A stretch of 42,901 nucleotides of DNA from a virus. This document shows, one piece after another, positions 9,362-25,320 of the stretch. Made by a program: the position numbers and the translations under genes. The notes under the pieces were generated by a model. The model made no database searches. It saw only the letters and a program-made list of their open reading frames with translations, and had not been told where the DNA came from. The stretch spans positions 1 through 42,901 of the IMG/VR virus record IMGVR_UViG_3300038761_000002; one strand, 5' to 3'. The first letter of the stretch is position 1; each line of letters begins with the position of its first letter.

Positions 9362-11311
9362 TTATGCGTTGACCTGTTTCAAGAAGGTATTACCGGCGAT
9401 AACCAACTGACCGGTGGAATAATTCACAGTCCCGATCACCTCAAAATCCCGGCGGCTGACAAGCGAACCATTGCCGTTATCCGTCACCCAGTGAGACTGA
9501 TCGATATAATTAGTGCTGAGCACTTGCCCAGCACCATCTTTAACGGTCCGTTTCACCGATTTAATCATGGTGAAATCCACAGACCCCGGCTCAATGCTGG
9601 ATGCCGTTTCAATCACAATATCCGCCTGATTACTGTTGTTCGGCACAGTGACAGTTGTTGTGAGCTCAGCCTCATCCTTGTGCGTGTAATCGACGGTCAC
9701 ATCGCCATCAGCCTGGAGCGCAGTGGTAATATCGATTTCACCGCTGGCATAGTTAATCTGCCCTGTAGCATCACCGGTGATGGAACCATCGCCAGCCACA
9801 TCAGTGGCTGTTTTCTGGACACTGCTAACCTCCCAAGTGAGCGTGACAGACCCAGCCACCACTTTGCGGTTTGCCAGGCGAATGCTCAGTGGGGTAACAC
9901 CGGCGTAGGCCTCCGGGTCCTGAACGTAAATGCTTGAGTCTGTCCAACGATAGAAGATGACCGACCCGGCATCTGGCTGCGCCTGCAAGGTGGCAATCAC
10001 ACTGCCCGAGTCGTAACTCACCTGCCCCGACCCATCACCCACCATATTGCCGGTGCCGTCGTCGCGAATGGTGTACCACTTGCCCAAGTAGCGATAACTC
10101 AAGTGCAAGGAAAGCGGTGCAGGCGCCGGATCGAGACTGAGGACGTAATTGAAGTTTCGGTTTGAATCCTCAATGTCGATGCTGCCGGTGTTGGGGATCT
10201 GCTGGCGCAAGGCGCCAGGCTTATAGGAAAGCGTTGTAGAGCCCGACGCACTGCCCCCCCATGTGACCGTACCCGTTGCATAATCAATGGCGCTGCCTTC
10301 CAGAGCACCGGGCACCCCGCCACTGGTAATCAATACACCGCCTTTATCGCTGTAGGATTCACCACCCAGAGAGAACGACACCGACCCCGGCACCACGGCG
10401 GTGGGGAGCGTTGATGCTTCACCACTGGCCACAGTCACGGCCAGGCTCACGCTATCGGAGCCACCGGCCACAATCTGGTTCACATAGCCGCCGGGGCGCT
10501 GATCAATCACAGCAGTTTCATTGCTGGCCGTGGGAATGATCGGGGCGAAGGTATCCGCCACCTGAATGGTCAGGTCCCCCGAAGCAGCCGCCTCCCCAAG
10601 CGAGGTGGAGCCGTAATACTTGGCGGACGTAGCGGGCTGAGTGCTATAGATCAGCGAAGGGCCCGCTGGTTTGGGGCTCGGGTCTGACGCTGGGTAATCG
10701 CGCTTTAGCTCTGCAGACAGCTCCAGAATGTACTGGTCCGCTTTAAACGTGCGAATATCGCCACCGTTCACTTCATAAGTGAAGGTCGCTTCAATGTGCT
10801 GCACATTGAGGATCTTGATGAACTGCTGGGTGCCGAGATCCTGCCCTTCTTGGAGCAACAGCGTGTCGCCAATCTCAGGCGCGGCAATGTTGTTCACCGT
10901 GGGTGCATAGCAAATGATTGAGCGCTGACCTTGCAGCTGGTTACCCCGCAGCGCCAAACCGGTGACAGGGCCGGGAATCACAAACGATTCCACCCGCTGC
11001 CGCGCCGCCTCGCGCTCATCGTAGAAATTCTGCGTGGTAAACAGCAAACCAGACACATTCGGGTCCAGCGGCTGGGCACTCAGAATAGAGTGCGCATCCA
11101 GGTAAAGGTCTGTGGTTGCGGTATCCACTTTCAGAAACGCCTTACGCAAGCTCACTTCACCGTAGGTTCTGTCCACACGGGAAATGTCCTCGAAGAGGTT
11201 ATTGATATCACCATCAATCACCTCGTTACCCGTCATCTGCCCACCACCATCTTCGTTGTCGGTGAGCCGTTCGGGCTGCATCAGTTTGATATCGTCGCTT
11301 GTGATCGCCAC
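9362..11311 (-). CDS. Repeat-containing tail protein, 649 aa
   Basis: The first 220 residues are unique and start MAITSDDIKLMQPERLTDNEDGGG, a form I recall from tail genes of marine gammaproteobacterial phages. From about 307 on there are four copies of a roughly 60-residue module at about 307-363, 395-457, 484-543 and 573-640. Each has a GSV strand, a D-G-x-G turn and a closing G-x-I/V-x-Y-x-S/T-G-x-V. These look like tandem beta-sandwich domains that extend a tail-tip structure. Function is inferred from position after the tape measure. Confidence 0.82.
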   Translation of the reverse strand: MAITSDDIKLMQPERLTDNEDGGGQMTGNEVIDGDINNLFEDISRVDRTYGEVSLRKAFLKVDTATTDLYLDAHSILSAQPLDPNVSGLLFTTQNFYDEREAARQRVESFVIPGPVTGLALRGNQLQGQRSIICYAPTVNNIAAPEIGDTLLLQEGQDLGTQQFIKILNVQHIEATFTYEVNGGDIRTFKADQYILELSAELKRDYPASDPSPKPAGPSLIYSTQPATSAKYYGSTSLGEAAASGDLTIQVADTFAPIIPTASNETAVIDQRPGGYVNQIVAGGSDSVSLAVTVASGEASTLPTAVVPGSVSFSLGGESYSDKGGVLITSGGVPGALEGSAIDYATGTVTWGGSASGSTTLSYKPGALRQQIPNTGSIDIEDSNRNFNYVLSLDPAPAPLSLHLSYRYLGKWYTIRDDGTGNMVGDGSGQVSYDSGSVIATLQAQPDAGSVIFYRWTDSSIYVQDPEAYAGVTPLSIRLANRKVVAGSVTLTWEVSSVQKTATDVAGDGSITGDATGQINYASGEIDITTALQADGDVTVDYTHKDEAELTTTVTVPNNSNQADIVIETASSIEPGSVDFTMIKSVKRTVKDGAGQVLSTNYIDQSHWVTDNGNGSLVSRRDFEVIGTVNYSTGQLVIAGNTFLKQVNA

Positions 11312-24311: not shown

Positions 24312-24778
24312 AGCTCATCCATGCAGAGCGAATACTCTGCCTCACGCCGTTTAACTAACCCACCCAACCGAACACCGCCGGCATAGACCCAGCGCTTCAA
24401 CTCCGGGCACCATTCCTGGTATGAATCACCTCGGTTAATCCTGACCACCAGCGTGCTGTTACATGCAGCCCCAACACCGACGTTATAAGCCCAGCTCAGA
24501 ACCGCCGCCCACTGGTTAGGCGTGAGGTAGCCATCAACGCAAGCCTCAACACCAGCAAGGTGGGTACGCATTTCACGCTGGAGCGCAGCATCACATTCAG
24601 CATCAGTCGCCGTGTCGCCCATCTGCACATCAGCAGTTATGCCCTCGCAGATCGTGGGCACACCCACCGGGTCAAGGTAAGCAACCAGGCTGCGACCTTC
24701 GTAAGGAGCAATCACAGAACCAGCAATGGCCAGCACACCAGCACCAATGATCCCTGCCAAGCGCGCTTTACTGGCCAT
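24308..24778 (-). CDS. Endolysin, GH24 lysozyme with N-terminal SAR/anchor segment, 156 aa
   Basis: This muramidase cuts peptidoglycan. The catalytic triad pattern E-x8-D-x5-T is exact (Glu27, Asp36, Thr42 in PYEGRSLVAYLDPVGVPT). The start ARLAGIIGAGVLAIAGSVIAP is a weakly hydrophobic signal-anchor-release type segment, so export may be Sec-driven and activation release-dependent. ATG 24778 has GAGG nine bases upstream. Four Cys after the active site (GACVD, GAACN, EWCPE, SLCMD types) could form disulfides. It overlaps holin upstream and Rz downstream. Confidence 0.93.
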   Translation of the reverse strand: MASKARLAGIIGAGVLAIAGSVIAPYEGRSLVAYLDPVGVPTICEGITADVQMGDTATDAECDAALQREMRTHLAGVEACVDGYLTPNQWAAVLSWAYNVGVGAACNSTLVVRINRGDSYQEWCPELKRWVYAGGVRLGGLVKRREAEYSLCMDEL

Positions 24779-24998
24779 CACTATCAACCTCTTGAAGTCT
24801 ATCCAGCCTCAACTTGAACAACCGCTGCTCGCGGCGATCTTTGCGAAACTGATACACCCCATTAATAAACAAGGTCAGCAACGCAGTGAATATACCGACG
24901 ATGACGCCCCATTCAGTCAGGGTCAGCCCGGCCAGCACCGATACGCCCGCCCCGGCATAGCTGCCAGCAGCGACCACACTGTCCGTCTTTGGCGTCAT
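24768..24998 (-). CDS. Holin, two membrane helices, 76 aa
   Basis: The protein times lysis by forming inner-membrane lesions. Two hydrophobic stretches (about 10-25 and 30-48, LTEWGVIVGIFTALLTLFING) are followed by a basic C-tail (FRKDRREQRLFKLRLDRL), as in HP1/P2-type holins. ATG 24998 has GGTGGGG upstream. It is the first gene of the late operon after the leader and overlaps endolysin by 11 bp. Confidence 0.88.
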   Translation of the reverse strand: MTPKTDSVVAAGSYAGAGVSVLAGLTLTEWGVIVGIFTALLTLFINGVYQFRKDRREQRLFKLRLDRLQEVDSDGQ

Positions 24999-25011
24999 TA
25001 ATGGCCCCACC

Positions 25012-25038
25012 AGAAATAAAAAGCCCCGCCGAAGCGGG
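25012..25038 (-). terminator. Terminator just before holin
   Basis: On the minus strand CCCGC-TTCG-GCGGG (25038-25025) is followed by GCTTTTTATTTC. It stands at the end of the late leader, 14 bp before the holin start, so late transcripts must read through it. Confidence 0.75.
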
Positions 25039-25051
25039 ACCGGGAGAAAAT

Positions 25052-25189
25052 TGGTTGCAGCAGCAGGAATCGAACCTGCTCCGACCAGCGCCTCACTGGC
25101 CTACACATTTTCCCTGCATCAATGGGCTACCGATACAAAGCGTGTGTCGCGCGTAAAAACCCGCCGCTCTACCCTTGAGCTTCGCTACA
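25052..25189 (-). ncRNA. tRNA-like structure in the late leader (about 138 nt)
   Basis: Read on the minus strand the 5' end TGTAGCG (25189-25183) pairs with 3' TGCTGCA (25062-25056), seven pairs with two G-U. A D-arm GCTC-AAGGGTA-GAGC follows (25180-25166). Near the 3' end is a perfect T-arm GCAGG-TTCGATT-CCTGC (25079-25063), then the acceptor strand, a discriminator A and an encoded CCA (25054-25052). Between D- and T-arms are 86 nt instead of about 22. They contain a GGCCAG-TGAGGCG-CTGGTC hairpin directly before the T-arm and a weaker CGACACA/TGTATCG hairpin. No standard anticodon arm is found, so no amino acid is assigned. Confidence 0.6.
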
Positions 25190-25195
25190 TCACAA

Positions 25196-25228
25196 ACAAA
25201 AAAGCCCGCAGGCATAAACCAGCGGGCT
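25196..25228 (-). terminator. Terminator upstream of the tRNA-like element
   Basis: On the minus strand AGCCCGC (25228-25222) pairs with GCGGGCT (25209-25203), followed by TTTTTGTTTG. It is the second terminator of the late leader. Confidence 0.75.
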
Positions 25229-25242
25229 CGAATTACAGGCAT

Positions 25243-25278
25243 AAAAAAACCCGCCGAGATTTCTCTGGGCGGGTTTTT
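25243..25278. terminator. Bidirectional terminator at the start of the late leader
   Basis: AACCCGCC (25248-25255) and GGCGGGTT (25268-25275) form an 8-bp stem with A-run on the left and T-run on the right, so it can stop transcription on both strands. It lies about 10-15 bp downstream of the predicted late start, the position of lambda tR'. Confidence 0.88.
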
Positions 25279-25291
25279 CCACGATGGGAAA

Positions 25292-25320
25292 ATGATGGTC
25301 GTTTTTGTCCGGTCCGTCAA
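25292..25320 (-). promoter_or_regulatory. Predicted late promoter (pR'-like)
   Basis: On the minus strand the -35 TTGACG (25320-25315) is separated by exactly 17 bp from the -10 CATCAT (25297-25292). It lies 31 bp after the Q-like gene and 15 bp before a strong terminator. Transcription would start near 25285 and run through the leader into lysis and structural genes. The -10 is only four of six to consensus, so strength is uncertain. Confidence 0.6.

Follow-up and report, generated by a model that had tools for sequence, protein, structure and literature searches.

A non-decoding tRNA-like RNA in the late leader of a marine phage, and what looks like a family of its relatives

Introduction

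Non-decoding tRNA-like RNAs of phages have precedents in RNA C and RNA D of phage T4 and in phage Y RNAs. T4 RNA C is a 139-nt late RNA from a tRNA cluster, with a hairpin before its T arm, and both it and RNA D are described as having 'yet unknown functions' (PMC9697503). In lambdoid phages, small-RNA cargo can follow the late promoter and precede the lysis genes, and StxS of Shiga-toxin phages is produced from leader transcripts terminated in the lysogen (PMC7873438). Phage-encoded tRNAs have been considered as decoys, or as supplements, in the face of defences that cut tRNA (PMC13096335).

Here we analyse a stretch of viral DNA of 42,901 nucleotides (IMG/VR record IMGVR_UViG_3300038761_000002, positions 1 to 42,901; the window hereafter), in which the late leader of a marine phage contains a tRNA-like RNA of an architecture that we did not find in T4 RNA C or D or in phage Y RNAs. 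With its relatives it looks, from sequence comparison, like a family of phage-encoded non-decoding tRNA-like RNAs; no description of such a family was found in the open-access literature searched, and Rfam 15 holds no specific model for the RNA, only the general tRNA model.

The late leader

The minus strand of the window carries, in order, a Q-like gene, a promoter-like site, terminators t1 and t2, the tRNA-like RNA, terminator t3, and the holin, lysozyme, Rz and terminase genes (Table 1). An earlier note, made from the letters of the window, had proposed the promoter, two terminators, tRNA-like fold with encoded CCA and third terminator between the Q-like gene and holin, and these were confirmed. 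Its reading of the leader as following the lambda pR'-tR' plan also holds: the Q-like gene lies directly upstream of a conserved promoter, and t1 begins ~9-10 nt past the inferred transcription start at about 25285, where the note had placed a terminator about 10 bp after the start. The Q-like protein has no Pfam match. As a pattern match alone the promoter is at chance level (1 found versus 1.1 expected); TTGACG, the spacer and CATCAT (or CATGAT, CACTAT) are kept in nearly all of the 16 leader relatives, collected by a search with the window's Q protein, that were aligned with the window. Terminator t1 is present in all 17 of these leaders, the window included. Weak Rfam matches over t1 and t2 (trpB, STnc370 and others) were dismissed as terminators matching terminators.

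Between t1 and t3 (25243-25041, minus strand), the leader appears to have grown stepwise, with some relatives having t1 and t3 only, others adding t2, and three adding the tRNA-like RNA.

Table 1. Features of the late leader and of the tRNA-like RNA, in window coordinates
Feature	Position	Strand	Basis or remark
Q-like antiterminator gene, 198 aa	25351..25947	-	phrog_127 'anti-termination protein Q-like', E 1.4e-5
Putative late promoter, pR'-like, TTGACG-17-CATCAT	25292..25320	-	-35, spacer and -10 conserved among 17 phages
Terminator t1	25243..25276	-	Fold and alignment; segment MFE -23.3 kcal/mol
Terminator t2	25198..25229	-	Segment MFE -20.0 kcal/mol; only in closer relatives
Segment missing from seven close relatives	25047..25193	-	L003-L010 compared with window, L006, L011
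tRNA-like RNA, whole, 138 nt	25052..25189	-	Encoded CCA at 25054-25052
Acceptor stem	5' strand 25183..25189, 3' strand 25062-25056	-	Double-sided changes in 7/7 pairs, 9 sequences
D arm, GCUC-AAGGGUA-GAGC	25166..25180	-	Stem invariant in 9 members
Hairpin H1	25149..25164	-	In place of anticodon arm, without 7-nt anticodon loop
Arm H2, closed by core helix ACACA/UGUGU	25103..25147	-	Invariant ACAC/GUGU
H2 loop GCCC	25124..25127	-	Complementary to H3 loop G(A)GGC, 25094-25090 (loop-loop contact)
Hairpin H3	25083..25101	-	Covariation and shuffle test
T arm, GCAGG-UUCGAUU-CCUGC	25063..25079	-	Rfam tRNA match and alignment of 9
Terminator t3	25013..25041	-	Segment MFE -14.9 kcal/mol
Holin gene, first of lysis cassette	24768..25010	-	phrog_20, E 4e-12

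Fold of the tRNA-like RNA

The Rfam tRNA model (RF00005) matches positions 25189-25055 with 32.4 bits (cut-off 29), and ARAGORN, run on the window, finds no tRNA there. The minimum free energy (MFE) fold has the acceptor stem, D arm, three hairpins, T arm and CCA (z -2.9), and seven helices can be named along the RNA: acceptor, D arm, H1, the core helix ACACA/UGUGU, H2, H3 and T arm, with acceptor and T stems stacking into 12 bp. The tRNA-like fold of the earlier note therefore stands as regards acceptor, D and T arms and CCA, but three arms lie between D and T, and there is no anticodon arm. Folding the entire leader gives a global MFE that differs from the tRNA-like fold, a warning that the RNA may misfold before the transcript is processed.

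By its sequence, this is not a decoding tRNA. It has no 5-bp anticodon stem with a 7-nt loop and constant anticodon; H1, which is 15-18 nt long across members, has unlike loops. The base after the acceptor, the discriminator, is A, A, U and G in the four closest members, and acceptor identity pairs vary among members.

Presence and absence among relatives

Only 2 of the 16 relatives with a related Q carry the tRNA-like RNA. One is L006 (the same as L027) and the other L011 (the same as L139), a prophage of Alcanivorax sp. DSM 26293 (L146). Seven close relatives have a cleanly empty site in a leader that is otherwise nearly the same, reading GTTT|CTCCC where the window has 147 further bases; in one of these seven the Q protein is 99% identical to that of the window. 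The earlier note had remarked that a tRNA-like element is foreign to the pR'-tR' plan, and these shared leaders with the site empty agree with it; they also indicate that the RNA is a cargo module rather than part of the switch. Its presence is independent of which downstream lysis gene follows. Divergence of the RNA (96.4 and 85.6% identity) tracks that of the leader (94.4 and 83.4%), so that, where present, the RNA is old and maintained. A self-contained mobile element was not found: there is one copy per phage record and no target duplication.

Members of the family

Further members were sought with pattern scans and covariance models, and viral contigs as a whole were scanned by motif. This brought the total to nine loci, with relatives of the window RNA in six unrelated phage contexts that include phages of Bacteroidota. 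One member lies in an early operon (L140), and occurs also in a genome from the same order as Alcanivorax; another is located after a Cro-like gene (L021), and a third (L237) is flanked by an Rz-like gene and a lipoprotein frame. The T arm and acceptor of this L237 member seem to share sequence with the start region of the outer spanin-like lipoprotein (L237:9850-10224, minus strand). L272, L274 and L270 are three further members, the first of which sits between the tRNA-Phe and tRNA-Ile genes of a 23-tRNA array with a 3-nt gap on each side. In seven unrelated contexts the RNA always has the sense of the neighbouring genes, for which the chance is about 1/128 if orientation were random. The four gammaproteobacterial members encode a free CCA, and L272 has one near its end; L274, L270 and L237 do not encode it.

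Model R1, built from four sequences, gives the five others 74, 69, 64, 62 and 46 bits and ordinary tRNAs about 25-36 bits, and with model R2 members reach 74 or more bits and everything else 54 or less. The Rfam tRNA model gives L274 28.5 bits, just under its cut-off of 29. Since some of the nine loci were selected by the core motif (L140, L270, L272 and L274 were found with it in the search pattern), its conservation is partly by construction; in L021 and L237, CGACACAC was not required by the search, yet is present in both. The nearest matches of the L270 terminase and of the L274 Mu B-like protein are in Bacteroides and Porphyromonas phages, which makes it probable that the family extends over phages of two or more phyla.

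Members are sparse. The RNA is found in 1 of 46 genomes of the Alcanivorax family and 2 of 391 of its order, with no other member among 369 genomes of the class, and it is missing from the searched stretches of Bacteroidota phages akin to those that carry L270 and L274. Searches by blastn with six members against 50,697 phage records, and with the window copy against 72,556 plasmids, gave no relative, only T-arm and terminator matches. Among the T-arm matches, L294 and L295 are ordinary tRNAs and L296 is a different tRNA-like RNA outside the family. Two matches in Bacteroidota genomes (L291 and L292, about 50 bits) were dropped, as they are without the core, and most matches of one pattern scan proved to be D and T arms of neighbouring tRNAs or TROVE-linked RNAs.

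Other RNAs were observed in the searched records. The L296 RNA (L296:699-826, plus strand) is an unannotated 128-nt tRNA-like RNA of the N4-like Escherichia phage VTCCBPA_322, with a 7-bp acceptor, a hairpin ahead of the T arm and CCA, in the style of T4 RNA C; it scores 20.5 bits. A tRNA-Asn-like gene with an anticodon-loop insert of ~65-70 nt and GGACC/GGUCC closing occurs at L103:2258-2403 (minus strand) and in L071 and L116; the insert could be a small intron. Long-insert tRNA-like RNAs follow each other closely, at least two at a time, at L030:526-947 (minus strand), L080:872-1122 (plus strand), L120:1488-1820 (plus strand) and, several of them, in L109; the L030, L080 and L109 records have no TROVE gene. 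Just upstream of the L274 member lies a second short T-arm-bearing sequence (L274:8480-8580, plus strand) with no Rfam match. The phage with the L021 member has two matches to the C4 antisense RNA of P1/P7 (RF01695; 3828-3910, minus strand, and 10835-10920, plus strand), a family with no match in the window.

Covariation and a loop-loop contact

In the unfitted alignment of four sequences (A3), double-sided changes occur in 10 of 45 pairs, which 0 of 500 shuffles reach. In the nine-sequence alignment (A4), which unlike A3 was fitted to the covariance model, compensatory changes are seen in 30 of 45 pairs and 95% of cells are paired. By arm, they fall in 7 of 7 acceptor pairs and 2 of 5 T-stem pairs. 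The earlier note had proposed to judge the fold by compensatory changes in acceptor, D and T stems; acceptor and T stems bear it out, and the D stem, being invariant, says nothing either way. Neither the D stem nor ACAC/GUGU varies in any of the nine members, which points to constraint at the level of sequence there.

The hairpins were also assessed outside the alignment that defined them. H1, H2 and H3 are better than shuffles in the five members outside R1, with combined p of 1e-6, 3e-5 and 4e-5. The MFE folds of the first four members agree without alignment, and those of L272, L237 and L270 keep the same seven-helix plan, save that the T stem is missing from the L270 optimum; in L021 and L274 the plan fits within about 3 kcal/mol of the optimum.

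In every family member the H2 loop is complementary to the H3 loop, for example GCC/GGC in the window, ACC/GGU in L139, UCC/GGA in L140, GUAACC/GGUUAC in L272 and GCUCAA/UUGAGC in L021. This complementarity was noticed first in L021 and then tested in the rest, with hand-set loop borders, and an exact permutation test reaches it in 8 of 40,320 arrangements (p = 0.0002). None of 14 other loop pairs is significant in the same test (p of 0.1 or more).

Discussion

As a whole, the locus is probably best explained by a non-decoding tRNA-like RNA that is made late, processed in the manner of a tRNA, and acts in trans. The RNA would have no promoter of its own and would ride on a host transcript, which in the window would begin at pR'. 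The Q-like protein would let RNA polymerase past t1 and t2, so that the RNA is made late; RNase P would cleave at 25189/25190, and tRNA 3'-end enzymes would complete the CCA end, giving a free, stable RNA. Two features speak against this reading: L274, L270 and L237 do not encode a CCA, and position 8, a U in true tRNAs, is A in the window and in L027, L139, L140 and L021. For the L272 member, in its tRNA array with 3-nt gaps, processing of the tRNA type seems all but required. More tentatively, the free RNA may act in trans as a decoy or scaffold, its tRNA elbow and acceptor end being offered to a protein of the host or the phage, for example against tRNA-targeting enzymes, with no decoding and no fixed mRNA base-pairing target. 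Because conservation resides in the D arm and core and not in the loops, a protein-binding tRNA mimic is our best guess, and the discussion of phage tRNAs as decoys (PMC13096335) makes the decoy version reasonable by analogy. We are less confident, at rather below even, of the broadest proposal: that such RNAs form a class of three-dimensional tRNA mimics, with elbow and kissing hairpins, whose target in trans is a host enzyme that binds tRNA or a tRNA-targeting defence, and that they travel as single-RNA cargo in phages of at least two bacterial phyla.

It is unlikely that the element is a processing device in cis and nothing else, an RNase P site at which the lysis mRNA is cut free of the terminator-rich leader and acquires its 5' end. 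The location in the leader, the 12-bp acceptor-T stack and the CCA would suit such a device, and so would relatives that lie between operon genes, one of them beside Rz in a lysis cassette; but phages in unlike contexts all keep the three additional hairpins, the invariant core helix and the contact between loops, and the tRNA array of L272 needs no such device. The processing signal for RNase P suggested earlier is probably right as a step but does not account for the entire function: the conserved core, the hairpins and the loop contact exceed what cleavage needs.

We see a small chance that this is a base-pairing regulatory RNA, which silences phage or host mRNA and borrows tRNA ends for stability. 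RNAs such as StxS, encoded close to the late promoters of lambdoid phages, are precedents (PMC7873438), but the terminal loops of all three hairpins vary from member to member, and the H2 loop is taken up by its contact with the H3 loop. A very small chance attaches to an orphan Y RNA, that is, a Ro60-type RNA with a tRNA-like domain whose Ro60 partner is encoded elsewhere. Phage Y RNAs also have D and T arms and a large insert, and the scan pattern that retrieved family members also picked up phage RNAs from TROVE-bearing records (11 of 30 records); the same TROVE search finds the gene in none of the 9 family records and in neither of the 2 host genomes, and the GGUUA-type strand common in TROVE-linked phage RNAs is, by eye, absent from the new family. 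Rfam Y RNA and YrlA models have no match in the window, and the phage RNAs of TROVE-bearing records miss them too.

Those TROVE (Ro60) phage contigs with long-insert tRNA-like RNAs (L087, L120, L038, L162, L182, L058, L099, L104, L068, L057 and L175) are worth recording in their own right. Many of the RNAs have the GGUUA-type strand, and those tested match the general Rfam tRNA model or nothing.

Two further proposals of the earlier note fare badly. An antitermination or attenuation structure acting on RNA polymerase in the leader, as the two-stem put RNA of HK022 does, would suit an element between t2 and t3, but we find it barely credible: the element is downstream of t1 and t2, seven relatives have the same leader without it, and other relatives occur where no such terminators are seen, one in a tRNA array. 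A stable RNA made from terminated leader transcripts in the lysogen, the StxS route, is disfavoured, since transcripts ended at t1 or t2 stop short of the element and antitermination or read-through is needed to reach it. As for the idea that this is what remains of a normal tRNA gene, its insertion being meaningless, the Rfam tRNA score just over the cut-off and tRNA-Gly as the nearest ordinary tRNA by model speak for it, but the hairpins of the insertion show covariation and are shared by unrelated phages, which contradicts a remnant and leaves it next to no chance.

Non-decoding tRNA-like RNAs of phages, T4 RNA C and D among them, have gone decades without a function, and the family provides a comparative handle on them: a conserved core, a covarying tertiary contact, and natural presence/absence pairs in the same leader. 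It also has a named host in Alcanivorax sp. DSM 26293, whose prophage carries the RNA.

Compared with known RNAs, the window RNA shares acceptor, D and T arms with the tRNAs of RF00005, from which it differs in having two extra arms and no standard anticodon arm, and in being silent to ARAGORN. T4 RNA C and D, without a D arm or the core motif, are unlike the family; the family model gives T4 rnaC 15.3 bits, under several ordinary tRNAs and far under members, and does not match rnaD. With tmRNA it has in common tRNA-like ends, a large insert and no anticodon, but it is 138 nt long, has no tag reading frame, and has a full D stem; ARAGORN finds no tmRNA, and no tmRNA family is among the Rfam matches. 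The bacterial and phage Y RNAs are likewise non-decoding, have D, T and acceptor arms with a large structured insert, and occur in phages; the insert architecture differs, the ACAC/GUGU core and the H2-H3 contact belonging to the new family. The lambda pR'-tR' leader has the same Q-like gene, promoter and terminator near the start, and StxS-type small RNAs are likewise cargo ahead of lysis genes. In the window, however, the cargo is tRNA-like and placed past two terminators, not a terminated leader fragment, and the late-leader site of a Q-type phage here carries a structured RNA instead of a protein gene.
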